DNA from: Owenia fusiformis
Taxonomy: Eukaryota > Annelida > Polychaeta > Sabellida > Oweniidae
Direction of reading: 5' to 3'
NCBI GenBank assembly: GCA_903813345.2
Contig: CAIIXF020000011.1
Location: 9,706,842 to 9,770,841, forward strand
DNA: 64,000 nucleotides
Part shown: positions 30,509-57,699 of the stretch, piece by piece
How the letters are laid out: every line of letters begins with the position of its first letter
Numbering within the stretch: the stretch's first letter is position 1
The notes under the pieces: model-generated
Seen by the model: the letters and a program-made list of their open reading frames with translations, nothing else
The model's database searches: none
Told to the model about the DNA's origin: nothing
Position numbers and translations under genes: made by a program

Positions 30509-30555
30509 TGGTTACAAGGATATAGATCGAATATCACGTGAAGATATAATTGATA

Positions 30556-34670: not shown

Positions 34671-34724
34671 TCACATGATGATAAAAGCCTCTAGAAAGTC
34701 AAAGTGCTTATGTTTTAATGAGAG

Positions 34725-34829
34725 ACCTATATTAACAGGGCCAATAATGCTTCGGCGTAGGCCTTGTATCTGTTTGTATGATGTATTATGAAATAAAGGA
34801 AATATAAAAAAAAAAAAAAGAACCTATAT
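34725..34829 (+). mobile_element. Very short LINE tail insertion
   Basis: About 87 bp (34733-34819): CAGGGCCAATAATGCTTCGG...GAAATAAAGGAAATATAAAA plus poly-A, nearly the same as the last 85 bp of the 17652-17931 insert. ACCTATAT at 34725-34732 and 34822-34829 is a likely target duplication. Confidence 0.75.
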
Positions 34830-35800: not shown

Positions 35801-35999
35801 GATTTTGGAACAAGTGACACCTCTTACATTATAAAGGAGTGGTATCGATATGGAGAACTGAATTCAACAATCTTTTTCTCTTTAACCAATCATTGAAAAC
35901 ATTCTGTAAAAAACACGGTATTTTATATAATGTTGACTGATTGACAACAATTTAATGCGAAAATTATTTAGAAATATTTTATATATCTATTTTTGTTAA

Positions 36000-36777: not shown

Positions 36778-37082
36778 TTAACATTTTTTGTTTTTTTAGT
36801 GCAATTGTTTTTGCTCCTTTCTACTAGTTCTTGGGAATGAAATAAAATGTCTTTCCAAACCTTGTTGGAACAAAATAGCATATACAACATGTTTTTAGAC
36901 CTCTCAATATTATAGTTATACAAAGGAATTTTTGGTTGATTTTAAAAAATTATTCAAAAAATTAAAACAAAATCCCTCCAAAATAGATAAAAATCAAGAT
37001 AAACATTTTATTTCATTAACAACATACTTTTTTAAAATCAACCAAAATTTCCTTTTTTAGACCTCTCAATATTTAATAGTTA

Positions 37083-38601
37083 TCCCATCGAACGAAGTTC
37101 GGAGGGATATAGGGAACGCCTCCGTCCGTCTGTACGTCCGTCCGTCCGTACGTCCGTACGTCCGTACGTCCGTACGTCCGTACGTCCGTCCGTACGTACG
37201 TACGTACGTACGTCCGTCCATCCGTCTGTCTGTCCGTCCGTCCGTCCGTCAATTAAAATCAAAATAAAATAAAATAAATGACAAATAAATAAAATCAATT
37301 ATAATCTACCTATATGATGTAGATATTCAAATGTTGGTCTGAATTTATCTTTGTGGAAAGATTGTATGCTTCAGTTGCTCTTTAACAAAACATGTGGGAC
37401 AGTGTATCTATATATTACAAGACGTCCGTCCGTCCGGGCAATAACTCAAATACCGTTGGCCCGATTTTGTTCATATTTTGTACACATATACCTTATGGGA
37501 GTAGAATTTCTGCTCCAAAGCCGATTTTCAAAATGGCTGCTCATTTCAAAATGGCGGCCATTTTAGTGCCGATTTTACAGTAATTTAGGTGCAATATGTA
37601 AAACTGTTATAGCAATATGTTTTAAATGTAAAAAAATTATAAAAGACATTAATAATGCTACAAATGTAGATATTAAAGAAGCACATGGCAGCCATCTTGA
37701 AAAATGGTGGCCTTTACTCGTCATTTTACGATTTTTGCTATAACTCAAAAAATAGTGGAGCGATTTTGTTCATATTTGGTATGTGAATACTATTAGCATT
37801 GTACACTGTCTTTAGACACTTTTGGTAGAAGGCGGCCATTTTGAAAAATGGCCGCCATTTTAACATATTTTACTACAACTTGAAAAGTAGTGGAGCAGTT
37901 TTTTCGTATTTGGTATGTGAATACTATAAGCACGGCACACTGCCCTATGGCCGCCATTTTAACATGTTTTACTATAACTCGAAAAGTAGTGGAGCGATTT
38001 TGTTCATATTTGGTATGTGAATACTATAAGCATGGCACACTGTCCTATGACACTTTTGGTAGAAGGCGGCCATTTTGAAAAATGACCGCCATTTTAACGT
38101 ATTTTACTATTATTATCGAAAAGTTGTGGAGCAATTTTGTTCATATTTGGTATGTGAATACTTTAAGCATGGCACACTGTCTATTTCTAATGACACTTTT
38201 GGAAGAAGGTGGCCATTTTGAAAAATGGCCGCCATTTTAACGTATTTTACTATAACTCAAAAAGTAGTGGAGCGATTTTGTTCATATTTGATATATGAAT
38301 ACTTTAAGAATGGCACATTTTCTAATAAAACTTTGGGGAGTAGTCGGCCATTTTGAAAAATGGCCACCATTTTTATGTGTGTTATTTTACAAGTACGTGT
38401 GCGATTTTTCAAAAATTTTAGAGGTGGCTACTGAAAAGCATATTATTTCTTCTGATGACAACTTGGCTAGTGAGCAACCATTTTGAAAATGGTGGCCTTT
38501 CTTATGTGTGTTGTTTTATGATATTTGCTATTCGTTTGTAAAAATGCCAGCCATTTCTGTTCGATGGGATTCGCTACGCTTTGGCGTTGCCGTTGTTCTG
38601 G
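37083..38601 (+). mobile_element. Helentron-like family A, complete copy
   Basis: Starts (TA)TCCCATCGAACGAAGTTCG with a long CCGTCCGTACGTACG microsatellite (37117-37252), then ATAACTCAAATACCGTTGGC and about eight cassettes of 130-140 bp (AGTAGTGGAGCGATTTTG, GGCCATTTTGAAAAATGG). GTTCGATGGGAT near 38556 is the inverted copy of the 5' ATCCCATCGAAC. It is followed by the stem-loop ACGC-TTTG-GCGT and the end GTTGTTCTGG. Rep-A sequence resumes at TTATACAAATG. The empty site AGTTATACAAA exists at 36917 and fits insertion between two T. Confidence 0.75.
37117..37252. repeat. (CCGT)n/(ACGT)n microsatellite
   Basis: GTCCGTCCGTACGTCCGTAC-type tract, with a self-complementary ACGTACGTACGT section at 37193-37212. 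Confidence 0.95.
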
Positions 38602-39060
38602 TTATACAAATGAATTTTTGGTTGATTTTAAAAAAGTATTTAAAAAATTAAAACAAAATCCTCCAAAATAGATAAAAAATCAAGATAAACCTTTTATTTT
38701 ATTAACAAGATACTTCTTTAAAATCAACCAAAATTTCATTTGTACAATTACAATATTGAGAGACCTAAACATGTTGTGTTTATGTCGTTTTGTTCCTATG
38801 AGGTTCGGAAAGATGTTTCATTTCACTCTGGAAACATGATACCAAGAACAAAACAAGTGTTTGATGTGTTTTCTAAAACAATATAAATGAAAGTATATAC
38901 ATTACAGTATATATAATATATTTCAAAGTATATTGTTACCATTCAAAAGATGACCATTAAATTGACGATGTGTTAAATTTTTAGATTTACTTATCACTGG
39001 TTTAAGAGAAACGTGTGTTCAAAAAGTTCACATATCGATATACAGTCTAAAAGGGAAATA

Positions 39061-40029
39061 ATGGGCTTGTTTGATTAAGTCTGAGGTCTAATATAAATCC
39101 TAACGAACAACAAAACAATTCAAAATCTTGTTTTTTCCTCTATTTTCTGTTTCAAGTACAAGTTCACTGTAGCTTGCCTTGCCTCAGCATGATCAGTGTT
39201 GGTGTTGCAAAAACTTACAACTGATATAGTTTATGTACCCTTTAGTGCCTTACCACCCTCTACTGTATGCTAGCTACCCTGCTTTGTGCAGCTCTAACAT
39301 GTACGATTAACCTGTTTACTATCCTTGCCCAAGTCGGTCTCTTTTACTTATCTTGATTTCTATTATGACCACCTTGTACCCAGGAGAAAGCCACATGCTT
39401 TACCGACCCAATCTTTATGTCGGTAAAATTTGACCAATCAATGATGGCCCTGCAGAGTTAGCTCATTTTTATGCACGGTCAAAAGCAAGTACAGTTTTCA
39501 CCAGGACTTTTTACGAACAAATCTTGCACGAATTCATCATGAAAATACAAATATTTTATCACCGGAGGTGAGAAGATTTCAACAATAAACGTTGAAACGA
39601 TCGCTGTATTCATATGATCTTACATGTAGGCTGAGATTCAATCACTGATCAACGACTACATGGCCCGCTACATGGACTAGGTCTTCGTGCATTTTCATCT
39701 CTAAATAAGTTTTAAATCAACATTGAATCGCATGATTTAATTTATTTAATTTATATGAATGACTCTTACATTCCAATGTACATTTAATTACATAATATAT
39801 TGTAACTCTAAAGAAACACTCCATCAGATCATTGAATTTCAAGTCGGAGACGGGAAGTTTGCTTTTGTTTATGACGGTCAACCTGATAATGTTTTGATTG
39901 GTCAATCAGCCTGAAGTCACACATCGTGTCCATGCGATCTTGTCAATCAATAAAGTTTCGCGATACCCCTGATAGCGTAGGTATTATGGAAATCTCAAAA
40001 CCGCTGAATAACTCAGCATAATATCAGGT
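39061..40029. other. intron stretch, nothing recognised
   Basis: No recognised repeat or exon. It is less repeat-like and slightly more GC-rich than its surroundings. Confidence 0.45.
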
Positions 40030-40097
40030 CAATATCACGGTCCTTTATGTAATGTTGACTGATTGGCAACAATTTAATGCAAAAATCATTTATATAT

Positions 40098-40588
40098 ACC
40101 GTATTATCTCCTATTGGCGCACACTCCCCTATAAGCGCACATGCGACTTTGGAAACATGACAAACATTTGTGATAAGAGCAAAAGAGTAGGAAAACTTAC
40201 AGAATAACGATTTTTTAACTTACCAAATTTCATTTCCGGGTAAACTTTTATGCGTAGTAGTTATTATGACGATAAAATAAAAGTCAAAACTTTTACCTGA
40301 TAAATATCGCAATATTTCTTTATTTTACCAATAGTTGGTTCTTTAAAAATGTAATATTATAGTAAATAAACGACACAAGACATGATTTGGCGTGAAACAA
40401 CAGTAAGTATGATAATATTCATTTCAAACCAGGCTTCGAATTCTGATTTTCATATATTATCACCTAATCAAAATGATAACTTATATGTGCGCTTATTGGG
40501 ACTTTATTTGATTGATTTCTCTCCAATTCCATGGTATTTCACCTCAATTTCACAAGCGCACTGTGCGCCAATAGGCGATAATATGGTA
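40098..40588. mobile_element. TIR element (CCGTATTATC ends)
   Basis: CCGTATTATCTCCTATTGGC on the left; GCCAATAGGCGATAATATGG on the right. GCGCAC motifs follow each end. About 490 bp, no transposase. It interrupts Rep-A relative to 35.95 kb. A deleted relative is at 9387-9513. Confidence 0.8.
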
Positions 40589-40973
40589 TTTTATATATCT
40601 GTTTTTGTTAACATTTTTTTGTTTTTAGTGCAATTGTTTTTTGTTGTTCCTTTCTACCAATTCTTGAGAATGAAATAAAATGTCTTTCCGAACCTTGTTG
40701 GAACAAAATAGCATATTTTCTTAGACCTCTCAATATTATTGTTACACAAAGGAAATTTTAGTTGATTTAACAAAAAGTATGCAAAAACTTAAAACAAACC
40801 CCCCAAAAATAGTTAAAAATTAAGATAAACCTTTTATTTCATTAACAAGATACTTTTTTAAAATCAACCAAACTTTCCTTTGTACAATTACAATATTGAA
40901 AGACCTAAACACGTTGTGTTTATGTCGTTTTGTTCCAATGATGTTCGGATAGATGTTTCAATAGACTAGATGC

Positions 40974-41396
40974 GAGTAGAAATAATCTTGATTTACGTCA
41001 TTAAATATTCAAAATCCAGTCAAAGTGATGTCATATTTGAAATCTACATGTAAAAGTACATCTAGAAATTTGGTTTGGAAAATTGATTATCAACTTTGAA
41101 AATTTAATTTTTTTGAAAATGTGACTTCTAGTTCGGGTTGATTCCCCATAGACCCCATGTTACAAAATCACAAAAAGTGAAATATCTTTTCTTGTATTGG
41201 AGAGATAACATTTTCTTTTCCTGGACATATTTTAATTTATATAACAATTAGATACATAAGGGTTATATGAAAATTGAACCATTAAAACAGACGTAATTTA
41301 AGTTAAAGGGAACTTTCTACCATACCCGCCATGCTATCTGACCCGAACGAGCCACCTGGTGGTGAAACTGGTAACTACTTACTCGCATCTGCGTTA
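40974..41396. mobile_element. AAT-site MITE, copy 2
   Basis: ACTAGATGCGAGTAG on the left and CTTACTCGCATCTGCGTT on the right, with the same interior as copy 1 (TCTAGTTCGGGTTGATTCCC, CCACCTGGTGGTGAAACTGG). It is inserted in Rep-A at the place that is uninterrupted near 38838 (GATGTTTCATTTCAC). Confidence 0.82.
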
Positions 41397-41603
41397 TTCA
41401 TGCCGAACATATGACACCAATAACAAAAGGAGTGTCTGATGTGTTTTCTAAAACGATATAGAAAAAAGTATTTATTTATATATATTTCAAATTATAATGT
41501 TACCATCCAAAAGTTGACCATTAAATTGATGATGTGTAAAATTTTCAGAATGTTTTGATTACTGGTTTATGAGAAATCTGTGTCCAAAAAGTTCACCATA
41601 TCG

Positions 41604-42325
41604 CAGAGGTCTAGATAAGCTGTCGCCATTCGCCAATTGCGAATATTTTTAGCACCTGGCGAAGATCTTGATCTAAATATTCACAAAGGTGGCGAAGATC
41701 TTTGTACAGAACCTACCTGAGAAACAAATAAATTATCGGGGATTCTTCGTTTTCAACTTTTGTAATTTTTGTAATTTCATCCATGAGACGCCACAATTAT
41801 TTTTGTTTCAATGGAAATTTAACACAGGGCACCTACACAAGACCTATTGCGTTTGGTATTTTGATGAATCAATTGAGACGCCAAAACTTATTTTCGAGTC
41901 AATGAAAATTTAACATTAGCTCATATTCACAAACCTGTTTCGTTCGTTTTTCTGATACATTCAATCTGTCTGTTTGTCGAGCTAAATATTTCAAAATTAT
42001 GCTGGGACCATTGAGATCTTTCCGGCCAGACTGGAAGGCAGGTTGGCCTTGGCTTAAATACAACGACGGAAAGATGACATGTGAAATTTGTCTGAAATAT
42101 GGAAGTCAAAGTGACACTCGAGGTTGACAGACTGATTGAAAAGTATCAGTAATAATGATTATCAGAAAAGACTATTAAGAATGCAATCTACATAATCTGT
42201 TAAATGTGTTTTTTGTGAAAATATAAGAAAATATTGTGGCTAATAATTTTTCAGAGTGGCTAATATTTTTTTAAAAAACATTAGCCACATTGGCTAATAA
42301 CTTTTTCAACTTATCTAGACCCCTG
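41604..42325. mobile_element. hAT-like MITE in Rep-A
   Basis: Inverted ends CAGAGGTCTAGATAAG and CTTATCTAGACCCCTG; 7-bp direct repeat CATATCG at 41597-41603 and 42326-42332. Rep-A without the insert reads GTTCACCATATCAATACCAC (complement of 25157). CAG-type ends and 7-8 bp duplication suggest hAT. GGCGAAGATCTT is repeated inside. There is no transposase. Confidence 0.82.
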
Positions 42326-42350
42326 CATATCGACACCACTCCTTTTCACA

Positions 42351-43165
42351 CATATTACATGGTAAGAAGTTCTCGAACTGATTTCCTTTTCGGTGGCCAT
42401 CTTGCATTCTGGTGGCCATTTTTGATGTTTTTAGACAAATCTTGTTTGCGCAATAACACGAAAACCCCTTAACAGATTTACTTCAAATTTTTACACATGT
42501 TACATGGTATTAAGTTCTAGAGCTGATTTACTTTTCTGTGGCCATTTTGCTTTTTGGGTCAACAAGCCAACACTGTTATGTTTTAGGTACGATATTGTTC
42601 ACCCTGTGCCTTTTTTTTTCTAGTTGTGAAGCAGACTGTAACAATTGGTAATCTAACATCACTCCAGTTCTACTTAGTCTTACATCAATGCCCATCGTTA
42701 TATATTTTAATCTACAGGCAATTTATTGATTGATAATCTTCTGATTTATTCATTAATTTGCTAGTAGACTGCATTGGTATGACACTTCACTTCAACAAAG
42801 ATGTCTGTTAATCTCATGTCATACAGATTATAGCTTCACTTGGGAATAACTCTTATATTTTTCTAATTCATCTTAGCAGCTTGGATTTTACAAGGATTTA
42901 GTCGTTCTTATGCCCAGAATCTTACATAGCTTCAATAGACCCACTGGAAAGTAGTATCAGCCCAATTTATACTGCACATAGCATCTCAAGCCATCTTGGG
43001 TAAAACATTTTAGAAAAATTATGCAGAGTTTACACTACCATTTTTAAGACATCTGACGAAATATGGCGTTGTCTGTATCCAATATTTTTACCTATTTTTT
43101 ATGGAAATACTTAGCAATACTTGGAGGAATCATGCTAAATATTATTGAAACACATATATAGAGGT
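42351..43165. other. intron stretch with dispersed cassettes
   Basis: 42350-42610 carries two ACACAT.TTACATGGTA cassettes as near 7285. The remainder shows nothing recognisable. Confidence 0.5.
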
Positions 43166-43275
43166 TATTTAATGGGAGGTTTTTGATACAGGGTATATCT
43201 GAGGGAAATACAATATATCCGAGGGACCGTATATTGTATTTACTGAGGGATATACCCTGTATCAAAAATCTAGCA
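43166..43275. repeat. Foldback family P, copy 2
   Basis: GATACAGGGTATATCTGAGG pairs with CTGAGGGATATACCCTGTAT; inner arms AATACAATATA/TATATTGTATT surround CCGAGGGACCG. Confidence 0.85.
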
Positions 43276-44032
43276 TTTAATAACTGATTTATCCTATACT
43301 TATTAGATTTTGAAGATGAGTATATTATTACATGTAAGTATGTATTGAATGTTGTGGAACCCTCATGTAACAATTACAAATGATAACTACAATCAAAACA
43401 AATCCAAATGTAAAGGTCTTAAAGGGTGACGCTCGTTTCTGGTGTTGCTCACCGTTTAGTATAAAAGGCCCGATCCCGGAATAATACTCAAGGGTTCACA
43501 GGCTCGAGGTCGTTGTGTCAACACCTCTAACTGTTATATAGCATAAGTATATTATAGATCGTCACATATTTATAAAACGGTGATTTTTATTTTGACAAAT
43601 CAATTCCACATTTATGGGTGAAGTTTCAGGATCTTCTATTTGTGTATAATAAGGAAAAATTGACATCTAAATTTCCCCATAACGTAATAGCACACAGCTT
43701 GGTATATGAAATATCCTACAAATGAAACAAAGCAGTTCTGATACAAGGATTTATATTGGCTGTTGTACATATTCTTTGAACGCAATCACTCTATGGATAA
43801 TGTTTTCAAAATCATTATAAACGGATTACTTTATCTCAAAGACAATTTCAATAAACTGGATTTTACAGAACTCCCCTTATTTCTTAAAAATGTACTGATC
43901 CAGTCGATTTGCCTGGAGCCGCCATATTGTTTTTATACGGGATGCTTATCGGAACACTTTAACATTTATTGTTCCACAGCTTTTAACATAAAACGAAATT
44001 CCCGGAATTATTGAGCGGGTGATATATTATGA
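43276..44032. other. intron stretch, unidentified ORF
   Basis: An 83-codon + ORF at 43763-44014 (MYIFFERNHSMDNVFKIIIN...) has no recognised domain or splice sites. No other feature. Confidence 0.35.
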
Positions 44033-44473
44033 GGTTATATAATGGTTCTTTCTGTATATCGTTTTTATACTCAAGTGAGTATATGATATATTCACAAGTG
44101 AGCGTAGCGAACGAGTGAATATATAATATTCTCACGAGAGTATAAAATGCACGATATACAGAATGAACCATTATATAATCTTATTATGCCACTCTAAGTT
44201 CAATTACAGTTGATTCGAACACAATCATAACAATAATCAACTCAATAATGCTGATTTTGATCTTGAACCATTTATGACGTCACTTGATTCTAGGAAATCA
44301 TGAAAATTTTCATGATTTTTTTATTCATTGGTTCCCAGAATGCACCTCTACAGTGGTATACGCTGGAGTGTATACGGAGGAGTTGTATACGATGACGATA
44401 TACCACTCTCCACTGTATATCGTTGTTATAGACCCATGTTATACAACTGTAATTGGACTTAGAGTGGTATAAA
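44033..44473. mobile_element. Two-palindrome element, copy 2
   Basis: Same modules as 19478-20015. The first palindrome here has the complete centre AAGTGAGCGTAGCGAACGAG. About 90 bp in the middle of the second module is absent compared with the other copies. Confidence 0.85.
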
Positions 44474-44954
44474 TGTATGTATCACCCCCTGGATCCTCCC
44501 TCCCTAAATATCTATCATTGGTTAATACTTCCACACCATACAAAACTAATATTCTCTCAAAATAGTCAAAAAGGAATGAAGGAAATATTAAAATTGATGT
44601 GTTTTTGTTCGACATTGATATCAAAAGTCTACTGCGCATATTTTCTGCTGATCTTATAAGGTCATGAACTTAAGTGTTTTTTACTAATATTCCTTCTTGC
44701 TTCACGTCTTGTACACAACTTTAAATCAAACAGTTTGCAGTGGAAATAAAGAAAAGTATCGGGGAATTAACAATTCGTTTGATTTTGGGGGCTCTTCTGG
44801 GGATTTTTTAAATATTGTGTTTATTTAGATTCTCCCATTCCGCACCTTTTTAGCGTGAAATTAAACACAGATGACAATCCAACCTGTTTTGAATAACAGA
44901 GGCTGAAATTATATTGACCTGTCAGATCCTAATAAGACATATATCACGGTGTTA
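44474..44954. other. intron stretch, nothing recognised
   Basis: No recognised feature. Confidence 0.45.
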
Positions 44955-46210
44955 TAGCATGATGGTTACGACAAGGCGATTTGCAAAATTTTGTGGTAAT
45001 GATAACAAAAAATGGTGGATGGGAAAGACAGCATGTCCTCATTATCGCCTGTAGGCAAGATTCACAGATAAAATTTCCTTTTCAACTAGTTCCATTCGGT
45101 GACATATATATGGATGGTTATAAAATCTGGGTCAAATCTGCCAGGTTTACTAGAAGCAGAATATAAGCTGTAAACTTACCGACTGAGATATCCAAGTTCA
45201 TAATTTTTAGTCCTTTCTCGTGTTTTCTCAGTATATGTGCCTCAGAGCCACTCAAACTATTAACTGTAAGTAAACTGTGTATAAACAAGCCATAAAATGA
45301 CAAGTCCAGAACAGGAACGTGGTGTATATTGTAAATACTTATAAGGTTTCAAACACAATGTTGTTAGATGACTACGTATGAATTCTATGGACGATAATGT
45401 ATTGTATTACTTGTACATTAGATATTTAGCGGACGGTTACGTGCATGCATACCTTACAAGTCAAGGTTGCTAGTTCTGATAGCCTCTTTCCATGTCATTG
45501 TTATAATAATGGGTAAGAGGTGGAATATTGAATTGCTTACATTTGTTTTCAGGACTCGCAAGATACACTCTTGTTTGAGCCTCTATGGGGCAAGGAAAAA
45601 ATTGTGTCTTGCTTTATTTATGAAACCAATGAAAGTCAAAAAGATAGCAATGAAGAGGAAAACGAAGAATTAGCATCAAGTACTGATGAATATGACAAAA
45701 TTAATAACAATGAATCGGGGATACATATTTGAACAAGGTTCACGTAACCGTCCATCAATTTTTTGCGTAACCGCAAATTCAAAATATATTATTATGGCTT
45801 GAGTATAACATATTAGGTGGTTTCCAATGCTCAATTGGCTTTTTATTATCGTATGTAGGTTCCATCTATATACCCCGAGGTCGTTAGGCAATGTAGACCA
45901 TGCTGCCCTAACAACAAAATAAACAAATTATTAAATTTTGTGTAGTTTTGAATTTCAAACTCAACAGTTTTTTCGCTTATTTCATGTTATCGCTGACATC
46001 AATTTGCAAAGACTACATTCAAAATAGACATTACTAAATGCATCATCGAATGCGATGCTTACATAAATCGTTCATCCTTTCATTTATACACAGTAGTAGA
46101 AAATAATGCACCAACCTTAGTTTTCTGTTCCATCGCGGCCATTTTATTAGATAAATCAGTGAACGTAGCCGTCCAACCTCATTTTCAGAGGTGGCGTAAC
46201 CGTCATGCTA
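44955..46210 (+). mobile_element. TA-site TIR element, complete copy (1.26 kb)
   Basis: Ends TAGCATGATGGTTACG and CGTAACCGTCATGCTA, with TA on each side (44953-44954 and 46211-46212). Further GTAACCGTC motifs occur inside. Length and TA target resemble Tc1/mariner, but I see no DDE transposase. A truncated inverted copy is at 15162-16147. Confidence 0.75.
45467..45673 (+). CDS. 68-aa ORF inside a TA-site element, unknown function
   Basis: MLVLIASFHVIVIIMGKRW..., basic C-terminus (MKVKKIAMKRKTKN). About 85% identical to the ORF at 15432-15635, with one extra residue near position 14. The frame is kept over the whole length despite several substitutions. There is no known domain; the hydrophobic N-terminus could be a short membrane segment. 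It may simply be part of a decayed longer ORF. Confidence 0.3.
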   Translation: MLVLIASFHVIVIIMGKRWNIELLTFVFRTRKIHSCLSLYGARKKLCLALFMKPMKVKKIAMKRKTKN

Positions 46211-46596
46211 TAGCAGGATGTTTATCCAACAGAGATGAGTTTATAGAGAAGAAGTCAAATCTGAAAATGCAAACGCTTTATTTCCAAAGTTCCTCATTTG
46301 ACAGTGACAATTTAATTGTCTCTGATATATAAGCCTTTTAAGTTAGAATTGCATAATGACATGACATGATATTGTGCAGTTTTTCATTAATAATAATTAC
46401 ATGAATGAGGAATTGATCAAAAAATTGCGCAGAAATTCAGCTCTTTCATTTCATCATTTATGATCTTAGAGCTCTATGCTTTGATTGTGGCAACTTCCAG
46501 TTTCGCCATCTGTTATTTAAGAAAATGCAGCAAACTCCTCGAGTCGAGATCTCCAAGTCAAAAAGTTGTGTTATATCAGTTGATTATCCCAATTGT

Positions 46597-47222
46597 TATC
46601 CCACCGAACGAAGTTCGGAGGGATATAGGGAACGCCTCCGTCCGTCCGTCTGTTCGTCCGTCCGTTCTGTCCATCTGGGCAATAATTCAAATACCGTTGG
46701 CCCGATTTTGTTCATATTTTGTACACATATACCCTATTGGGGTAGAAGTTCTGCTCGAAAGCCGATTCTCAAAATGGCCGCTCATTTCAAAATGGCGGCC
46801 ATTTTAGTGCCGAATTTACAGTAATTTAGGTGCAATATGTAAAACTGTAATAGCAATATGTTTTAGATGTAAAGCTAGAAATGTAGATATTAAAGAAGTA
46901 CATGGCAGCCATCTTGTAAAATGGCGGCCTTTTCTCGTTATTTTACGATTTTTGCTATAACTCGAAAAGTAGTGGAGTGATTTTGTTCATATTTGGTATG
47001 TGAATACTATAAACATTGCACACTGTCTAAAGACGCTTTTGGTAGAAGGTGGCCATTTTAAAAAATGGCCACCATTTTGAAAAATGGCTGCCATTTTAAC
47101 CTATTTTACTATAACTCGAAAAGTAGTGAAGCGATTTTGTTCATATTTGGTATGTGAATACTATAAGGATGGCACACTGTCTAATGACACTTTTGGTAGA
47201 AGGCGGCCATTTTGAAAAATTT
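46597..47222 (+). mobile_element. Helentron-like family A, 3'-truncated
   Basis: TATCCCACCGAACGAAGTTCG start after a T, GTCCGTCCGTCTGTTCG tract, then three to four cassettes as in 37083-38601, with which it is very similar. It stops at GGCCATTTTGAAAAAT; no hairpin or CTGG end. Confidence 0.75.
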
Positions 47223-47282
47223 TGACAAAGCTTTGCTGCACATTATATATAACTACCTGAAATACACAAGCATTAGACTATG

Positions 47283-47803
47283 AGGTTATATAATGGTTCA
47301 TTCTGTATATCGTGTTTATACTCGAGTGAGTATATAATATATTCACAAGTGAGCGTAGCGAACGAGTGAATATATTATATTCTCACGAGAGTATAAAATG
47401 CACGATATACAGAATGAACCATTATATAATCTTATTATGCCACTCTAAGTTCAATTACAGTTGATTCAAACACAATCATAACATTATAAAAACCATAAAA
47501 ATATCCCATAGCCAACTCAGTAATGCCGATTATGATCTCGATTCATTTATGACGTCACTTGATTCTAGCAAATCATGTTTGAACCATTTATGACGTCACT
47601 TGATTCTAGGAAATCATATGTAACAAAACATTCAACTCGTTCTTCGGTCAATATTCATTAGTTCCCAGAATGCACTTCTACAGTGGCATACGCTGGAGTG
47701 TATACGGAGGAGTTGTATACGCTGACGATATACCACTCTCCACTGTATATCGTTGTTATAGACCCATGTTATACAACTGTAATCGGACTTAGAGTGGTAT
47801 AAA
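47283..47803. mobile_element. Two-palindrome element, copy 3
   Basis: GGTTATATAATGGTTC...GAACCATTATATAATC palindrome with central GAGCGTAGCGAACGAGTG, then TTATGCCACTCTAAGTTC...GACTTAGAGTGGTATAA. Longer than copy 2 and close in content to copy 1. Confidence 0.85.
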
Positions 47804-48820
47804 GTTTTTTATATTACTTCAAATGTATTGACACCACAATATTGCACCTTCTAGATTTTTTACTATTGCATACGTTTGCATCCTGTGGGAACCATCTATA
47901 GAAATATAGACTCTCTTGTTAATCAAATGTATTTAATTTTCATCAAAATTAATTGATAACATACTTGAATTGCAGTTATTTGGTAAAAAGTAAAGAAAAT
48001 GCCATTTACATCAATTTGTTTTTAGGAGGCAACCTTGTGTGACCCCGTTATAGAGGCAAAAACCCCTGTTACAATCAAAACAAAATATATTTTCTTATAA
48101 GTGAAGTCAGTACCTTGAAATGGTATGTTCATTTTTATGGCATAGTAACGGGCAACAACACTTCATTTTTCTTGGAGCAGGTTAGGGACTATTGTACATA
48201 AACAAGCTTTGCTCTGTTTCCACACTCTCAGAGGTATTATCATCCCAGAGCATTCAAAGCAATCACTTAATTTGTTTTGAGATGATACTTTGCTGAATCC
48301 CATTTGAGCAGTTTACCCTCAGAATAAATATCAGGGCTGATGGTTGGAAATACAAAATACAAGTGTAATAAGAAAGTTGTTTTGTTATTAATGAGAGACT
48401 CTTAATTGCATAGAAATGCCAGAAAATCAGAGTTTGTTCAAATTTTAGTGAGAAATTGCATAGAATATGCATGAGCAGATGGACATTTTCTCAAGCAGAT
48501 GGACATTTCTTGCTAGATACTTTTATTTATTGAAATCAGGCAGCTCTCTAGTTGCAATTCTAAGCTGGATGTCTATTAGAGTAAATTCTAATAAATCTTC
48601 TTAGTCCACTGAATGGCTTTCAATTTGTTAGATTCAGCAGAAGACAATATAGAAAAGTGTTCATCTTTGGATGTGTTTAACCACACATACTAGTTTTCTG
48701 CATGAAATAGTAAAAATTCTGCAAAAAATTCTCTCGAGCAAAAAAGGAAATTCTTCAAGGGGAAAATCGAAATTCTGCGCAAATATAGAGAAAAAAATCT
48801 GCAATTTTTAAAATGACCAC
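47804..48820. other. intron stretch, nothing recognised
   Basis: No recognised repeat or exon. Confidence 0.5.
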
Positions 48821-49215
48821 AAAGGACGATTCTCGGTTTGGAGAACAGTCTCCTGGGCTAATATTTGTTTTCATGAAAAATATAGAAATATTACCCAAAT
48901 TAAACTATGAATATTCAAAAGAGGACATTTAAATCTACAAGATGTAAAGATAACAAATTGGTCTGAAGCAGGGATAATGCTCAAATAGACCTATTCAATA
49001 TAAATACAAGTCTCGATTTGGGGAAAGAAGTTCATCAGTGTACTGCGCTAATATTTTTTTGCAAAAAATCTAGAAATATTACCCAAATTATATTATGACT
49101 ATTCAAAAGAAGACATTCAAATCTTTATTATGTAAAAAAATCAAATTTGTCCGAAGCAGGGATAATGCTCATTTAGATTGACGAACTTCGTTCTCCAAAC
49201 CGAGAATCGTCCTTT
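48821..49215. mobile_element. TIR element with internal duplication
   Basis: AAAGGACGATTCTCGGTTTG then GAGAAC at the left; GTTCTCCAAACCGAGAATCG then TCCTTT at the right: a perfect 26-bp inverted repeat. The interior is a tandem duplication of about 180 bp (CTGGGCTAATATTT / CTGCGCTAATATTT; GAAGCAGGGATAATGCTCA twice). A partial relative is at 9240-9385. Confidence 0.88.
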
Positions 49216-49821
49216 GAATTAAAGGCTTTCAAGGTGCAAGAAATGTTGCCATTTATGTATTTTTTCATACAGGGAAGGTATAATTATTAATTTCCATAAG
49301 AAGTGTCAAGGTCCAGAATAATTTCGGAATGGGACAAGGGGTCTCGGGACAGTCAGTAGGCGATGATAAGTGATTTACCTTCAAACACTGTTTTTTAGCA
49401 TCTTTTTTTTCACTATCATATACAGAGATACTTCATTCTAACTGTACTGCCCAGCTGTACTGGTTTACTCCTGATTTTTACTCTCTCGGGGATGCGAAAA
49501 TCATGAAAGCAAGTTCTTATAGAACAGAGATTCTCATTGGGCGATTAATTGTGTGGTCTGAGAGGTCCAATTAGATCCCGGCTTTCATAAACATGGTTGT
49601 TTACATTTTAGAAATCGGCAGAACTTTGCTGAATTTCAGTGAATTTAAGGACTTTAAGTTAAGAAATTAAAGTCCTGATATCGTTCTGAAATGATCTCTT
49701 TTTATATCGCCAAAAATCGGACCAAGTATTCTGGTTATTTTGGCAATTCTGCGGGATTTTCATGAAAAGTTTTGACAAATTCCATCTGCAGTATGAAATT
49801 ACGGAATACTAGTATTTATGT
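49216..49821. other. intron stretch, nothing recognised
   Basis: No recognised repeat or exon. Confidence 0.5.
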
Positions 49822-49825
49822 TTAA

Positions 49826-50530
49826 CCTTTAGCATGCTGCCGGCGAGTGTATCCGCCCATGTTTGACTATCCCGAGTGACTGCTGGTAGATCCATCCACC
49901 CGACTTCAAACTTTTAAAAACTCCACTTTTTCGCGCCATTCTTATGATCCAATTGCAAGATTTATTCAGTGCCTTACATATAATAAAATATTTCCCAATT
50001 CAACAATTTAAACAGAGTTTTATTCATTTTTAGTGACAAATCGTAGAAAATGTCAGCCAAGTACGATCACAACAAAAATGTGGGCCAAATACGATCACAA
50101 CGAAAATGTGGAGGAAATGGATTGCGATTTTGAGCTCTTAAGGCTCTTGGAAGCTGGTAATAGCCATCGAAAAAAAGAACTACAATATTTTCTGAACTGA
50201 AAGTGAAAAGTTGAACATTCGATCGCTACAAATTCAGTTTTGGATTCTGAACAGACGTTGAATCTTCCCAGGGGCAAAACTGTGGATTCCAAAGGAGTAT
50301 TCATGGTATATTTATGCCCAGTCATGTTTATTTACGAAAAAAAATTCATGAGAAATTTTATGAGCCAGGCCAGTGTATCTTCCTTTTGTGAAAATTTTAT
50401 GCAGATTCATTCAATAGTTATTGAGATATTAATTTTTTAATTCAGGCATATCATTTTTTGCACTCTTTGAAAAATAAGCCAGTCGCGTGGGATATATTTG
50501 CTGAAATAAGGCAGCATGCTAAATAAAAGG
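49826..50530. mobile_element. piggyBac-like element in a TTAA site
   Basis: TTAA at 49822-49825 and 50531-50534. The left end CCTTTAGCATGCTGCC is an inverted copy of the right end GGCAGCATGCTAAATAAAAGG, with a 4-base offset. CCYT-type termini and TTAA targets characterise piggyBac. The interior has a duplicated block CAAGTACGATCACAAC/CAAATACGATCACAAC near 50058 and 50088, but no full transposase. Confidence 0.75.
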
Positions 50531-50552
50531 TTAATGGTTAATTCCTTGATGG

Positions 50553-50600
50553 GGATCCTCGGTGCACTTGAGGTACCTTTTTTTGACATTTGGTATGGCG
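50553..50600. mobile_element. Fragment of the 21560-22150 element
   Basis: GATGGGGATCCTCGGTGCAC ... GGTACC ... CATTTGGTATGGC corresponds to the right end of that element in reverse. Confidence 0.65.
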
Positions 50601-50611
50601 ATGGAGACAAA

Positions 50612-50994
50612 GAAGGGGGAGTTGTTTGTAGAATGAATCAGGGGAGTTTTTTCAAGCATTTTGCTTATGATTAATTATAAGATTGCACCATATAATCCCC
50701 AAAAATATTTCTCATTTTCAAGGATTATGTATGGATTAACACCCAGGTATTTTGATTTTTCAAACTTCAGAGGTCTGGGAATCATTGATCCTTTTCACTT
50801 TTGAATAATATAAGGAATTTCCCATAGAAATCCAATGGTACAGTTCCAAGCAGATTTTGAGATAATAGGAAAGTAAATCTTTAATACACACCTTATTTAG
50901 TTGTTTCCATTTATATCGCAGGAATTTACGCCATCACTACTCCAGCCCTTAAAAAAAGTCAAAAATCATTCTACAAACAACTCCCCCTTCTCCC
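50612..50994. mobile_element. MITE with 26-bp inverted ends
   Basis: GAAGGGGGAGTTGTTTGTAG then AATGA at the left; TCATTCTACAAACAACTCCC then CCTTCT at the right. AGACAAA flanks it (50605-50611 and 50995-51001). No ORF. A partial copy is at 14990-15158. Confidence 0.85.
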
Positions 50995-51172
50995 AGACAA
51001 ACGGAGTGAACAAAAAAGATTTAGATTGAATAACGTGGATGAATTCTTAGTAAACTTAGAAAACTCTTTGGATGTTCAAGTACTGAAGGAGTGAAGGGTG
51101 TACTAAGGGTGAACTCGGCCTGTCGACAACCTCTTTATTATTTCAAACTTTATCAGCTATGGAATACAGCAG

Positions 51173-51345
51173 TTATGCACGGTCTGTTTTGATACGGGGA
51201 AATATCCCTTTGGATATACAATATATCTTCCCTTGGTCCCTTCAGGCCCTAGGGAAGATATACATGTTGTATATATAGGATTTTACATACATCACAGTAT
51301 ATCCCTCGGAATATTCTCTGTATCCAAAAACCTCCCAGTGCATAA
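51173..51345. repeat. Foldback family P, copy 3
   Basis: CAGTTATGCACGGTCTGTTT ... AACCTCCCAGTGCATAACCC with an internal palindrome (ATATCTTCCC.TGGTCCC/CCCTAGGGAAGATAT). Confidence 0.8.
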
Positions 51346-51599
51346 CCCCTATGTATTCTTGCTTTATGGACAAACTACTCCACATATGGTTGTCCTAGTC
51401 CTACCTTAAGAACTAAAAATATTGTATGAATACTCTGTCATGAATATACTACTTAATGATTACAGATATATACAGCGTGTTTCATATGTATGCACCCCCC
51501 CCCATAAACTCATATACAATGTATGTAGCATTGCCACCCTATCATGTTATATATCATTTTGTTCCTTATTGAAAGTTACATAATTTATTTTATTTATTG

Positions 51600-52010
51600 A
51601 TTTCTCAATTCACCCCTTGTATAAGAGTACAAAAGATAAACTTAACTAATACAGTAACAAACATTAAGATAACATTATAAATGTAAATTTTTTTGCCCAG
51701 CCTCGATTAAAAATTTACAAAGTTTTATAAGTATATTTTTGATTGAATTCATTAATTTCTCAAACTTCTGTGTGTTTGGATTTGTCAAATAACATTTAGG
51801 AAGGTACCTTTTTCTAATATAACTTAAAGCTTTGCATTCTAAAATGACATGAAATTCATCACCTATTCCTTTACCACATAAATCACAAAACCTATTTTCC
51901 CTTGGAATATTTTTATAACGTCCTCTTTCAACTGGGAGTTTATTATTACACAATCGGTACATAATTAAAACTTTTCTATATTTATCTGGCATACAGTCTA
52001 AGAGTGCAAA
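51600..52010 (-). pseudogene. LINE ORF2 C-terminal relic
   Basis: Minus-strand ORF of 105 codons (51675-51992): MYRLCNNKLPVERGRYKNIP, then RFCDLCGKGIGDEFHVILEC, then YIRKRYLPKCYL. This matches the terminal region of CR1-like ORF2 (a short R-rich 'L..E.GRY.N..R..R.C..C' followed by DE.H...EC). It lacks RT and endonuclease, so it is a 5'-truncated copy. Confidence 0.85.
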
Positions 52011-52971
52011 GTGTCAGAATCCAGTGGTGCCCCTGAAAAAAGATACAATGTATCAAAGTATGTGGGTACGGGTCATTTGGAGGGGAAACTGTAAACGCGA
52101 CCCATTTTTAAATTCGATGCATTCTCTGATAAATATCCATCATTGGATGCTTCCAACATCATACTAAACTAATATAATGTTATCTCAAAATAGTCCTTAA
52201 TGAATGAAGGAAATGTTCAAGTTTAAGAATTTTGTTTCATCATTTATCCAAGAAAGCTTTAGGTTTCTGTAGATGTCAAAAGGTTATGAATTTCCTCGTT
52301 TCTTTTTACATGACTTTTACATGAAAAATGAACATCTAACATCAAATTAAGAATATAAGGTATTACTTTAGATCCATATCCAACAGTCTCTAGTGGAAAT
52401 ATTGAAGATCATCTGGGAAAACAATGCCTTCAATTCGAGGGGTTAGAACTGCTCGAGATCTCCTCAATCACTGTCAATATTGTCTTTCAAGATCCTTACT
52501 TTATTTTAGTGATCTTTACCGTAATCTCTCCAATATCAATACATATCATTATTGTAAAAATATGCAGTTACTTTAAGTTTTGATGTTGCAAATAAGGCAT
52601 TCTTAACAAGAAAAATTGCCATACATGAAATTGTCGGTGACTTTAGACTCTTAATGAATATAGACACTTATTAAAATGGTCTGAAGATGTATATTTAATT
52701 TTCTAAATTCCCGGGCACTAATAACTTATTTGCAAAATGATGAGGTGATTGACAACGATAGAGAAATTGATAGCTTTCCAGTCAATGTGTCCAGATACAC
52801 CATTTTAATAATTGCTATATCTAACTCAGTTGCGAGAGAGTTTCACTACCTAGCTAAACACCAATTTATCTGACTATGCTAACTCTAAATAGGCTGTATG
52901 GATATCGTCACTTTAAGGATATCTGCCGCACTTGTCTAGAGGTAACATATTATTATTATATTAATATATTT
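52011..52971. other. intron stretch, nothing recognised
   Basis: No recognised repeat or exon. Confidence 0.5.
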
Positions 52972-53240
52972 ATTATCCTACACTTAGTATACTATATGTA
53001 TAATAACATAAAAAAATAAATTTGATATCTATTGGCAAAATGAATAACCGGAGGATATCACTACGATATACTCCGGAAAACCAGTATGCGGAGGATATCG
53101 TGACGATATACTCCGGGAAACCAGATATCGTGACGATATACTCCGCTTGTTGATTTCCCACAAAATTGAACTATTTGACATGAAATTTATTTTTCAATGA
53201 TATCAAACATTTAGTATACTACTAGTAAGTGTAGGATAAT
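52972..53240. mobile_element. Small foldback/TIR element
   Basis: ATTATCCTACACTTAGTATA on the left; AGTGTAGGATAAT on the right, with TTTAGTATACTA inside. The centre has three copies of a self-complementary motif, CGGAGGATATCGTGACGATA then TACTCCG. Confidence 0.85.
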
Positions 53241-53272
53241 AAGAACATCCGATGACTTTTTCAGAATATCAT

Positions 53273-54337
53273 TATTCCATCAAACGAAGTTCGGAGGGAT
53301 ATAGGGAATGCCTCCTTCCATCCATCTGGCGATTTTAGTGCCGATTTTACAGTAATTTAGGTGCAATATGTAAAACTATAATAGCAATAGTTTTAAATGT
53401 AAAAAAATTATATAGGACATTGATAAAGCTAGAAATATAGATATTAAAGAAGCACATGGCAGCCATCTTGAAAAATGGCGGCCTTTATTCATTATTTTAC
53501 GATTTTTGCTGTAACTCAAGAAGTAGTGGAGCGATTTTGTTCATATTTGGTATGTGAATACTATAAGCACGGCTCACTGTCTAGTGACACTTTTGGTAGG
53601 AGGCGGCCATTTTTCAAAATGGCTGCCATTTAAACATATTTTACTATAACTGGAAAAGTAGTGGAGCGATTTTTTCATATTTGGTATGTGAATGACATTA
53701 GCATGGCACACTGTCTAATGACACTTTTGGTAGACGCAAAATGGCCGCCATTTTAACGTATTTTACTATAACTCGAAAAGTGGTGGAGCGATTTTGATCA
53801 TATTTGGTATGTGAATACTATAAGCATGGTACACTGTCTAATGACACTTTTGATAGAAGGTGGCCATTTTGAAAAATTTCCACATTTTAAAGTATTTTAA
53901 AGTAGTAGAGCGATTTTGTTCATATTTGGTATGTGAATACTGTAAAGAAAAAGCATATTATTTACTCGTTATTTTACGATTTTTGCTGTAACTCGAAAAG
54001 CAGTGGAGCGATTTTGTTCATATTTGATTTGTGAATACTATAAACATGGCACACTGTCTAATGACACTTTTGGTAGAAGGTGGCCATTTTGAAAAATTTC
54101 CACATTTTAAAGTATTTTAAAGTAGTAGAGCGATTTTGTTCATATTTGGTATGTGAACACTGTAAAGAAAAAGCATATTACTTCTTCTGATGACAACTCG
54201 GCTAGTGAGCAACCGTTTTGAAAATGGTGGCCTTTCTTATGTGTGTTATTATTTTTGCTATATATTTCGTTTGTAAAATTGCCAGCCATTTCTGTCCGAT
54301 GGGATTCGCTACGCTTTGGCGTTGCCGTTGTTCTGGT
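53273..54337 (+). mobile_element. Helentron-like family A, complete copy
   Basis: TATTCCATCAAACGAAGTTCG start, short tract, five cassettes as in 37083-38601, then TCCGATGGGATTCGCTACGC, the ACGC-TTTG-GCGT stem-loop and GTTGTTCTGG followed by T. It is inserted in a foldback (AACATCCGATGA... before; AATCATAGGATATCC after) similar to 32075-32215. Confidence 0.75.
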
Positions 54338-54440
54338 TTTAATCTACTCGGTGATATGCAATCGTTCGCTTCTCTGTCTCGTGCAGATATCAATATCACC
54401 TCGTAGATAAAAATGATATTTCTCAAAATCATAGGATATC
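54338..54440. repeat. Right part of a foldback palindrome
   Basis: AATCTACTCGGTGATATGC ... CGTGCAGATATCAATATCAC ... AAAATCATAGGATATCC. Its left part (about 53241-53272) is separated by the Helentron-like insertion. Confidence 0.7.
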
Positions 54441-55043
54441 CCATATTCACACCTATTTACACAATTTCCTTTTTATTAGGGATTCTCTACGTACATATGA
54501 ATATAATTGAGACATGCCATTTTATGAAATATCATGAATTCATATTAAAAAAATGACTTTTCCGCACCTTGCGCACATGATATCCATGTTTCGTATAGCA
54601 CCGTCTGCATAGGGTGAAAAAGTAGAATAAGCATGTTCAATGTGGTTTTCATTGGCAAAACAAATGCTGCTAAGATTTAGTCCCCAGGCATTAAAAGACA
54701 TTGACTGATTAACTAACTGTTGCTTCGCCAGTATTTAAAATACCGTACTTATTTACACTCTAATTCTGTATGAATTCTCTCTTTTTCTCACTTTTCTAAA
54801 CACATATTCAGATAAAGGCACTGGTGTTAACATGCCTTTTCATAGTTGTTTCACCATTTTTACATTTCATTACATGTCATCTTTTCCATTAATGAAAGGA
54901 AAATTGAGAGAATATTGCATGGTTTATTAATAATCCCCCGAAATAACCTAGCTCCCCAACCACATTGTGTGGGTTGATGAAGAGAAAATAGGGCAATTAA
55001 TGAATTCCTTTTAGATAATGTTAAGTAAAATGATGTTGTAACA
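54441..55043. other. intron stretch, nothing recognised
   Basis: No recognised repeat or exon. Confidence 0.5.
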
Positions 55044-55044
55044 C

Positions 55045-55234
55045 AGGCCCGTAGCCAGAATTTTCCAAGGGGAAAAATATTTTTCCAAAAAATTCTAGGG
55101 GGGGGGTCACTTTGGCAAATTTGGCCAAAAATCACTCAAAAAATGGTCAGAATGGTGAAAAACTGCATGATTTTGAAAGAAATTTTGGCCAGGGGGTTCG
55201 CCCGAACCCCTCGAACCCCCTTGGCTACAGGCCT
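55045..55234. mobile_element. GGCCCGTAGCC-type MITE
   Basis: AGGCCCGTAGCCAGAATTTT at the left; CCCCTTGGCTACAGGCCT at the right; internal GGGGGGGGG and CGAACCCC blocks. Non-coding; the ORF crossing it is spurious. Confidence 0.8.
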
Positions 55235-55442
55235 GGAACATATATCATTCTAAAGGTGTATATTGAGAACATTGTAAGGTTAAGAATAAATAAAGAATGT
55301 CCCTATTAAGACTGTAATGAGATGATCTATTTTCATTAGGGGCTGGGTTCTTGACTTTCAAGGTATTATAAATAATGTCCTTGACATTATTATTTGCAAG
55401 CCTAACATCTCTGATACCTAGAATGCTGTCAGAAAACTACTC

Positions 55443-55642
55443 GTGGAATAATGAACTCCAATGGAGGTGTGATATCTCGGTGACAGGTCATCTTAACCCC
55501 AAAAATATAGTTGTTGAGTTTTACTGGGGTTGAGTTTTACAGGGTTGAGTTGACTTGGGGTTGAGATGACCAGGAAGCTGATATCTCAGGTGAAAATACA
55601 AGAGGGGGCAGATGTAATTGTTTCTAAATTGGTTATTTCTAG
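55443..55642 (+). pseudogene. Degenerate TULP4 exon copy with MITE insertion
   Basis: 55450-55478 and 55588-55620 align with the interior of exon 57096-57264 (ATGAACTCCAATGGAGGT..., AATACAAGAGGGGGCAG...). The copy lacks the splice acceptor and first codons. A 100-bp element (55479-55578) interrupts it; removal of one TGATATCTC restores the exon sequence. Confidence 0.85.
55479..55578. mobile_element. 100-bp MITE in an exon copy
   Basis: Inverted ends GGTCATCTTAACCCCAA / TTGGGGTTGAGATGACC, interior TTGAGTTTTACTGGGG repeats, and a 9-bp duplication TGATATCTC at 55470-55478 and 55579-55587. A longer relative made of the same TTGAGTT(TTAC/GAC) blocks is at 58288-58428. Confidence 0.85.
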
Positions 55643-57095
55643 GTCATATTTGGCACAAATGATGGCCAGATTGTCACTATGAACTCCAATGGAGGTATGA
55701 TATCTCAAGTGACAATACAAGAGGGGGCAGAGATAATAGCCATTGCTTGGTTTTAATTGATTCTTCATTGGTTATTTCTAGGTCATATTTGGCACAAATG
55801 ATGGTCAGATTGTCACTATGAACTCCAATGGAGGTATGATATCTCAAGTGACAATACAAGAGGGGGCAGAGAAAACAGCCATTGCTTGGTCTTAATTGTT
55901 TCTTCATTGGTTATTTCTAGGTCCTATTTGGCACAAATGATGGTCAGATTGTCACTATGAACTCCAATGGAGGTATGATATCTCAAGTGACAATACAAGA
56001 GGGGGCAGAGAAAACAGCCATTGCTTGGTTTTAATTGATTCTTCATTGGTTATTTCTAGGTCCTATTTGGCACAAATGATGGTCAGATTGTCACTATGAA
56101 CTCTAATGGAGGTATGATATCTCAAGTGACAATACAAGAGGGGGCAGAGAAAACAGCCATTGCTTGGTTTTAATTGATTCTTCATTGGTTATTTCTAGGT
56201 CCTATTTGGCACAAATGATGGTCAGATTGTCACTATGAACTCCAATGGAGGTATGATATCTCAAGTGACAATACAAGAGGGGGCAGAGATAACAGCCATT
56301 GCTTGGTTTTAATTGATTCTTCATTGGTTATTTCTAGGTCCTATTTGGCACAAATGATGGTCAGATTGTCACTATGAACTCCAATGGAGGTATGATATCT
56401 CAAGTGACAATACAAGAGGGGGCAGAGAAAACAGCCATTGCTTGGTTTTAATTGATTCTTCATTGGATATTTCTAGGTCATATTTGGCACAAATGATGGT
56501 CAGATTGTCACTATGAACTCCAATGGAGGTATGATATCTCAAGTGACAATCAAGAGGGGGCAGAGAAAACAGCCATTGCTTGGTCTTAATTGTTTCTAAA
56601 TTGGTTATTTCTAGGTCATATTTGGCACAAATGATGGTCAGATTGTCACTATGAACTCCAAAGGAGGTATGATATCTCAAGTGACAATACAAGAGGGGCA
56701 GAGATAACAGCCATTGCTTGGTCTTAATTGTTTCTAAATTGGTTATATCTAGGTTCTATTTGGCACAAATGATAGCCATTGCTTGGTTTTAATTGATTCT
56801 TCATTGGTTATTTCAAGGTCCTATTTGGCACAAATGATGGTCAGATTGTCACTATGAACTCCAAAGGAGGTATGATATCTCAAGTGACAACACAAGAGGG
56901 GGCAGAGAAAACAGCCATTGCTTGGTTTTAATTGATTCTTCATTGGTTATTTCTAGGTCATATTTGGCACAAATGATGGTCAGATTGTCACTATGAACTC
57001 CAAAGGAGGTATGATATCTCAAGTGACAATACAAGAGGGGGCAGAGAAAACAGCCATTGCTTGGTTTTAATTGATTCTTCATTGGTTATTTCTAG
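55643..57095 (+). repeat. 139-bp tandem array of a TULP4 intron/exon boundary
   Basis: Eleven units, each with TGGTTATTTCTAG acceptor plus the first ~111 nt of exon 57096-57264. Exon-like parts start at 55643, 55782, 55921, 56060, 56199, 56338, 56477, 56615, 56753, 56818 and 56957. Intact units read VIFGTNDGQIVTMNSNGG... to IAWF and then TAA. Unit 56477 lacks one A, unit 56615 lacks one G and unit 56753 has lost most of the exon part. The acceptor before 56818 is CAAG instead of CTAG. The final, complete member is the real exon. Confidence 0.95.
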
Positions 57096-57264
57096 GTCCT
57101 ATTTGGCACAAATGATGGTCAGATTGTCACTATGAACTCTAATGGAGGTATGATATCTCAAGTGACAATACAAGAGGGGGCAGAGATAACAGCCATGGCT
57201 TGGTCGTGTGAGAAGTTCAACATGGAAGAGCCAAATGATGAAACTGATGACACAGCCAGTCAAG
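57096..57264 (+). CDS. TULP4: TULP4 coding exon (WD40 region), phase 0 to 1
   Basis: Acceptor TTATTTCTAG, donor CAAG|GTATTTG. It reads VLFGTNDGQIVTMNSNG, then MISQVTIQEGAEITAMAWS, then an acidic tail with EEPNDETDDTASQ. It continues DDQK of the previous exon just as vertebrate TULP4 continues DDQQVLFGTADGQVIVMD. The stretch MAWS corresponds to the MSWN that starts the next blade, and the acidic segment to the SSESDTDSDD linker, shorter here. This is the 3'-most copy of the 139-bp array and the only one with the second half and a donor. Where most truncated copies have EKTAIAW, this one has EITAMAW. Confidence 0.95.
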
Positions 57265-57591: not shown

Positions 57592-57699
57592 ATGAAGACC
57601 GTGTTAATTTGCTTGCAATCTGTTTCAAATATGGTGCAATCTATTTAACTACTAGTGTTGATGATGTTTGTCCTAAGATCATCTATACAGGCCTAACAG
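57592..57699 (+). CDS. TULP4: TULP4 coding exon (WD40 region), phase 1 to 1
   Basis: Acceptor TTGTTTTACAG (ends 57591), donor ACAG|GTATGT (GT at 57700). Joined to the last G of the preceding exon it reads DEDRVNLLAICFKYGAIYL, then TTSVDDVCPKIIYTGL. This follows vertebrate TULP4, where the linker is followed by LLTVSFTSGDISLMNNYDD and P.VIRSGL. The next exon should start in phase 1 with the 'VVAQWCTQGDLLAVAG' equivalent; I did not find it up to 64000. Confidence 0.92.

Follow-up and report, generated by a model that had tools for sequence, protein, structure and literature searches.

A tandemly amplified intron/exon boundary in a TULP4 gene of the annelid Owenia fusiformis

The end of a long intron and the start of the following coding exon are repeated in tandem in a TULP4 gene of Owenia fusiformis. 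In the window (the whole 64,000-nucleotide stretch of DNA that was analysed), a 139-bp tandem array was found by TRF at 55615..57204 on the + strand (8.4 + 3.1 copies, 97% matches). It is composed of 11 decoy units, each bearing an acceptor, and of the 5′ part of the real exon, and it occupies the end of a 28,242-nt intron, directly before this exon. The amplification of this boundary into a 139-bp array had been predicted from the sequence, and both TRF and the 11 decoy acceptors preceding the real exon confirm it. A 97% array of such length cannot be put down to chance. We consider it probable that the array is a locally amplified minisatellite of the kind called mirage, and that it is tolerated by splicing.

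Results

The gene and its exons

The features of the gene are as follows, all on the + strand (the slash marks the exon end at donors):
8863..9006, earlier TULP4 propeller exon (PF24797 profile 73-120 at C11:9715704-9715847; extent as matched)
28689..28853, preceding TULP4 exon (WD40 propeller), ending in phase 0, donor AAG/GTATGT at 28854
28854..57095, intron holding the array, 28,242 nt
57096..57264, real exon, 169 nt, phase 0 to 1, donor AAG/GTATTT at 57265
57144..57153, internal donor GGAG/GTATGA of the real exon, GT at 57148
57592..57699, next TULP4 exon, donor CAG/GTATGT at 57700

Open frames and matches to PF24797, the family of the WDR35/TULP4 N-terminal propeller, were found for the TULP4 exons tested in the window, and the real exon adjoins the array. 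The preceding exon matched profile 117-171 at C11:9735527-9735697. Exons 28689-28853, 57096-57264 and 57592-57699 join into an open frame, which matched PF24797 over 2-145 with 78.8 bits, for a family cut-off of 80 bits; the general WD40 family PF12894 passed its own cut-off. The nearest solved structures were chains of IFT122 and IFT121/WDR35, not TULP4. On the same strand, ∼65 kb downstream (C11:9835625-9836682), a match to Tub profile positions 162-253 marks the C-terminal part of that domain, and this Tub-domain end decides for TULP4. One other Tub locus was found, at a distance of 3.5 Mb, and C1 carries a distinct WDR35-like gene. The name TULP4, given in the original prediction, therefore holds, as propeller exons of the PF24797 type are followed by a Tub-domain end on the same strand.

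We infer that the real exon ends at 57264, an end favoured by the open frame and by the profile match. The real copy alone also has a GT in phase at 57208 (CGT/GTGAGA, score 2.10), at which the exon might end instead. Splicing of the real exon at its internal donor would shorten the product by 39 codons and keep the frame.

Architecture of the array

A full unit is made of ∼30 nt of intron end and 109 nt of exon start. Its intron part contains TTTTAAT, a candidate branch site picked by eye, then the tract and the AG. The decoys, all on the + strand and listed from their first exon base, are:
55643..55751, decoy 1; acceptor end 55642; TAA after 37 codons
55782..55890, decoy 2; acceptor score equal to that of the real acceptor
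55921..56029, decoy 3; acceptor score equal to that of the real acceptor
56060..56168, decoy 4; acceptor score equal to that of the real acceptor; AACTCT common to this decoy and the real exon only
56199..56307, decoy 5; acceptor score equal to that of the real acceptor
56338..56446, decoy 6; acceptor score equal to that of the real acceptor
56477..56585, decoy 7; 1-nt deletion, frame shift
56615..56723, decoy 8; 1-nt deletion, frame shift
56753..56773, decoy 9; stub with an internal deletion, devoid of its own cryptic donor
56818..56926, decoy 10; CAAG acceptor
56957..57065, decoy 11; acceptor score equal to that of the real acceptor

Up to the real exon at 57096, the spacing between successive acceptors is 139 bp eight times, 138 bp twice and 65 bp once. 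An AG stands at the boundary of all 11 decoys, as CTAG in 10 and as CAAG once (56818), which is what had been predicted. Eleven copies of the first ∼111 nt of the exon had been announced: the count of eleven stands, and the length has to be corrected to 109-110 nt in 10 decoys and to 21 nt in decoy 56753. The in-frame TAA expected directly after the copied codons is present in 8 of the 11 decoys, the exceptions being 56477 and 56615, frame-shifted by their 1-nt deletions, and 56753, which has suffered a large deletion. Reading in the frame of the preceding exon and on to the real donor, a premature stop is nevertheless met in all 11, so that use of any decoy would indeed truncate the protein. 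The predicted cryptic donor GGAG/GTATGA was found 52 nt into the exon part of 10 of the 11 decoys, and in the real exon.

An additional remnant of a unit, without acceptor and missed in the earlier description, lies to the left of decoy 1. It is older than the decoy units, and is split by an inserted element:
55451..55485, + strand, left part of the remnant, 88.9% to exon positions 37-72
55486..55571, no strand assigned, 86-nt element splitting the remnant, with 17-nt terminal inverted repeats (16/17 matching)
55579..55612, + strand, right part of the remnant, 94.1% to exon positions 56-89

As the 86-nt element interrupts one unit, its insertion is later than the unit. It belongs to a dispersed family, with at least 109 matches from 40 scored of 507 candidate places in the genome. 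The 139-bp unit, searched with a 251-base query in the 498-Mb genome, was matched at the TULP4 locus only (13 of 13 matches, best candidates scored). Divergence is seen at the left edge of the array (the remnant and decoy 1) but also inside it, in decoys 8 and 9: the homogenised centre and diverged edges expected of mirages are seen in part only.

Other repeats were noticed in the window. The 86-nt element contains a minisatellite core, GGGTTGAGTTTTACT, and a repeat similar to this element is found at 58294-58413. Long arrays of 30-bp and 33-bp units, in which both strands contain long open frames, lie at 1-1694 and 3617-5715 and are probably minisatellites. Two arrays of closely similar 162-bp units, ∼6 kb apart, are found at 11133-12223 and 18073-19108.

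Splice-site strength and the internal donor

Splice sites were scored with a generic matrix, not one derived from Owenia fusiformis. With this matrix, the real acceptor scored 4.20; six of the 11 decoys scored the same, and five lower. The GGAG/GTATGA donor reached 3.21, a rank within the best 2% of all 3,317 GTs scored across the window, against −0.25 for the real donor AAG/GTATTT at 57265. Six decoys being equal to the real site and the internal donor being stronger than the natural one, site strength fails to explain why the decoys would be ignored. Since the scores single out no acceptor, it is the exon body and the downstream donors that would have to direct splicing to the last copy. Such a choice would be in line with the report that long introns on both sides weaken the bias towards the upstream one of two competing 3′ sites (PMC9225289). 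The introns flanking the real exon measure 28,242 and 327 nt.

The GT that follows the acceptor AG is poor as a donor in the two copies scored with the same generic matrix (−5.88 at 57096, in the top 57% of GTs, and −3.46 at 55643, in the top 30%). Recursive splicing, or a dual-specific AG/GT site, was rejected on this ground.

Each full unit could also be read as a nascent exon, with an acceptor, a 52-nt exon, the GGAG/GTATGA donor and an 87-nt intron, mini-exons being included at a real rate. This would be intron gain by tandem duplication of the type described in potato, amplified elevenfold. The presence of the donor in 10 decoys and in the real exon, together with its rank among the GTs of the window, speaks for this reading, and so does the potato RdRp gene, where duplication of a boundary containing a cryptic exonic donor gave a spliced intron (PMC4974935). 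However, placing a single mini-exon ahead of the real exon leads to a frame shift and a stop, whichever mini-exon is taken (10 of 10), the identical donor carried by the real exon must mostly be ignored, and the donor score itself comes from the generic matrix, not from measurements in the organism. We judge inclusion at a real rate quite unlikely, aberrant or nascent exons from the internal donor being possible. The preference of splicing for the last, donor-bearing copy would be the most likely reading.

Variation among the decoys

Substitutions were counted and classified by hand in ten decoys, the stub being left out. Their exon part has 7 substitution sites, 2 synonymous and 5 non-synonymous. 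These counts agree with the synonymous share of 0.25 expected under neutrality (P = 0.76-0.77 for at most 2 of 7). The other changes in the exon part are two 1-nt deletions and, in the stub, one large deletion. Among the decoys, 5 of 28 intronic and 7 of 108 exonic sites are variable (P 0.07), in the direction opposite to constraint. No selection for the decoy acceptors was detected in this within-array variation, the acceptor part not being spared: TULP4 decoys vary as neutral sequence would.

These counts bear on the proposal that the array is a selected poison-exon cassette, or a splice-site buffer, lowering TULP4 output under some condition. A stop does follow all 11 decoy acceptors, and these are mostly intact (CTAG in 10), yet the near identity of the units already accounts for the intact acceptors, the acceptor part shows no sparing, and the occurrence of a second array in an unrelated KIF4-like gene (see below) points to a mutational process. 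The regulatory function suggested in the original prediction is thus unsupported, and we regard it as very improbable.

Variation also bears on the assembly. A comparison of 11 copies, namely the real exon and every decoy except the stub, shows differences at 17 columns. A transposable element divides one unit, a private deletion is found in another, and the contig measures 37 Mb. Tandem arrays are error-prone, and one BflGb6 haplotype was aberrantly assembled in the draft amphioxus genome (PMC3087553); against the features just listed, a single boundary falsely expanded during assembly is very improbable here. The array structure in the present assembly is real, and its copy number may be wrong.

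Finally, satellite-like arrays on mobile elements are reported in oyster (PMC7492417) and a dispersed 86-nt element sits in the remnant, but the probability that an exon-capturing transposable element carried the satellite is negligible, as the best-scored matches of the unit are all at one locus, the array runs unbroken into the real exon, and the 86-nt element, which interrupts one unit, arrived later.

A second array in a KIF4-like gene

In a profile search with control families, 18 matches to kinesin positions 290-327, spaced by 159 bp, were found on C2:
C2:23266350-23269200, − strand, second boundary array, in a KIF4-like kinesin gene; 17 decoys and the real exon, 159 bp

The plan is that of the TULP4 array: intron end and exon start, with the complete exon last and a stop just past the copied codons. 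CATAG/ATTC (here the slash marks the exon start) is present in 18 of 18 copies, and KNKPV(A/V)L followed by a stop ends 17 of 17 decoys. The real exon is 175 nt long, with donor TTG/GTGGGT. From the upstream donor, the first decoy is reached after 511 nt and the real acceptor after 3,213 nt. The closest solved structure was KIF4 (1.4e-42).

Variation among these decoys was mostly synonymous, at 6 of 8 sites (P 0.004), or at 6 of 9 (P 0.009) when one site at a unit junction is included; this test was chosen after seeing the data, concerns one array, and differs from the TULP4 result. A wider count, with the real exon and the sites at unit ends, gave 10 synonymous and 3 non-synonymous changes (P 0.0001), and the count restricted to decoys is preferred. 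Between the real exon and the consensus of the decoys there are 3 differences, all synonymous. The skew may have arisen because the decoys spread from the exon recently, or because they exchange sequence with it.

A bolder proposal, which we hold to be rather unlikely, is that mirages are recurrent in the Owenia fusiformis genome, and that decoys and true exon evolve as one unit. If this were true, the first half of the last copy would be interchangeable with any decoy, and with each unequal exchange or conversion the coding exon would acquire decoy sequence. Selection acting through the exon would in this way purge the untranslated decoys, as the KIF4-like skew hints and the TULP4 counts do not, and the non-coding array would act as the template for the 5′ half of its own exon.

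Tandem copies elsewhere in the genome

The control search comprised six families: PF00063 (92 rows, best 65 of 210 candidates scored), PF00118 (60 rows, 76 of 76), PF00225 (144 rows, best 122 of 218), PF00069 (144 rows, best 124 of 876), PF00005 (25 rows, best 19 of 194) and PF00271 (85 rows, best 150 of 155), 550 rows in all. Rows were read by eye, and overlaps of neighbouring rows over part of the profile were taken as exon-edge extensions. Four close clusters of the same profile were noticed among the 550 rows: the KIF4-like array, a myosin cluster, a GSK3-like pair and a helicase-like pair. The profile search with PF24797 did not return the TULP4 array itself. With candidates scored in part and the TULP4 array missed in this way, no rate of mirages can be derived.

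The myosin cluster consists of twelve diverged tandem copies of a motor exon (Myosin_head ∼18-84) at C9:37986009-37994334 (− strand), open over the exon core. These myosin heavy chain copies look like a putative large set of alternative exons. Mutually exclusive exons were considered for TULP4 and rejected, as its copies, unlike the myosin ones, are truncated and near-identical. Two diverged copies of a kinase exon, with splice sites, are present at C10:2256896-2257205 (+ strand), in a gene that we take to be GSK3-like. Since the donor of the first is separated from the acceptor of the next by a mere 47 nt, the two should be mutually exclusive. At C4:29162068-29162455 (− strand), a two-copy direct repeat of ∼181 bp lies within a helicase-like stretch and includes no splice boundary.

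To see how common tandem arrays are, 20 pieces of 10 kb were sampled, at places chosen blind and not by a random generator. Eleven arrays (period of at least 60, at least 2.5 copies) were present in 9 of the 20 pieces. Two of the 11 were tested for dispersal: one was local, the other dispersed. Arrays being so common, some would be expected to fall on exon boundaries from mutation alone.

Discussion

In the explanation that we favour, unequal exchange would have amplified the boundary into a minisatellite. In most transcripts, 28853 would be spliced to the real acceptor at 57095, and the eleven decoys would be discarded with the intron. The real exon would be preferred because it alone is joined to the rest of the exon and to its natural donor. 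Rare use of a decoy would lead to the premature stop observed after each of them, and the transcript would probably be degraded; no selected function would be necessary. The array is contiguous with the real exon and, among the best candidates scored, matched at the TULP4 locus only, and the same plan is found in amphioxus BflGb6 and in a second array of the Owenia fusiformis genome. Against this explanation, normal splicing of TULP4 is an assumption, and the synonymous skew of the KIF4-like decoys is not predicted by plain neutral decay.

The intron offers twelve 3′ splice sites that closely resemble one another, of which the last alone is joined to the remainder of its exon, and so sets up the kind of competition that minigene experiments build by hand. 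The TULP4 array, in a 28-kb intron, and the KIF4-like array, with its short upstream intron, together offer a natural test of exon definition against the proximity rule.

Mirages are minisatellite-like tandem duplications of an intron/exon boundary, described in amphioxus for Adh3 and the globins BflGb6 and BflGb9 (PMC3087553), and also for TnC and PGBD5 (PMC3902484). In BflGb6, units of 150-160 bp containing intron end and exon start are present 3 or 6 times depending on the haplotype, and RT-PCR suggests that splicing is undisturbed (PMC3087553). The TULP4 repeat likewise spans an intron/exon boundary, and its units carry the splice signal. The genes are others and the copies more numerous: BflGb6 has 3 or 6 units, whereas TULP4 has 11 decoys and the KIF4-like gene 17. 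Tests of length change and of normal splicing come from the amphioxus mirages. A satellite built from a coding boundary had been held to be rare in the original prediction, a view weakened by the amphioxus cases (PMC3087553, PMC3902484) and by the KIF4-like array. Searching the openly licensed literature with varied terms, we found no mirage described by that name outside amphioxus, which is weak evidence of absence. As far as this limited search shows, the kind is already known, albeit obscure, and the novelty lies in the gene, in the copy numbers and in the second case within one genome, and probably in the animal. This suggests that mirages are not special to amphioxus, but recur outside it.

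In the potato RdRp gene, a two-copy duplication created a new spliced intron, supported by 106 RNA-seq reads (PMC4974935). There as in TULP4, the duplication runs across a 3′ boundary, the exon part providing a cryptic donor and the intron part the branch site, tract and AG. The potato gene has two copies and a proven new intron, whereas TULP4 has eleven extra copies. Both Owenia arrays bear on whether mirages feed the birth of new introns.

Splice sites inside each tandem unit are also found in the polyubiquitin gene UBC, the repeats of which contain dual-specific splice sites (PMC10809524). In UBC one site serves as donor and acceptor, whereas in TULP4 the GT at the acceptor is a poor donor, and the copies are not productive coding units. 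Finally, tandem alternative exons, such as the 12 myosin copies, are also tandem copies of one exon; the myosin copies have diverged and keep an open frame across the exon core, whereas those of TULP4 are truncated and near-identical.
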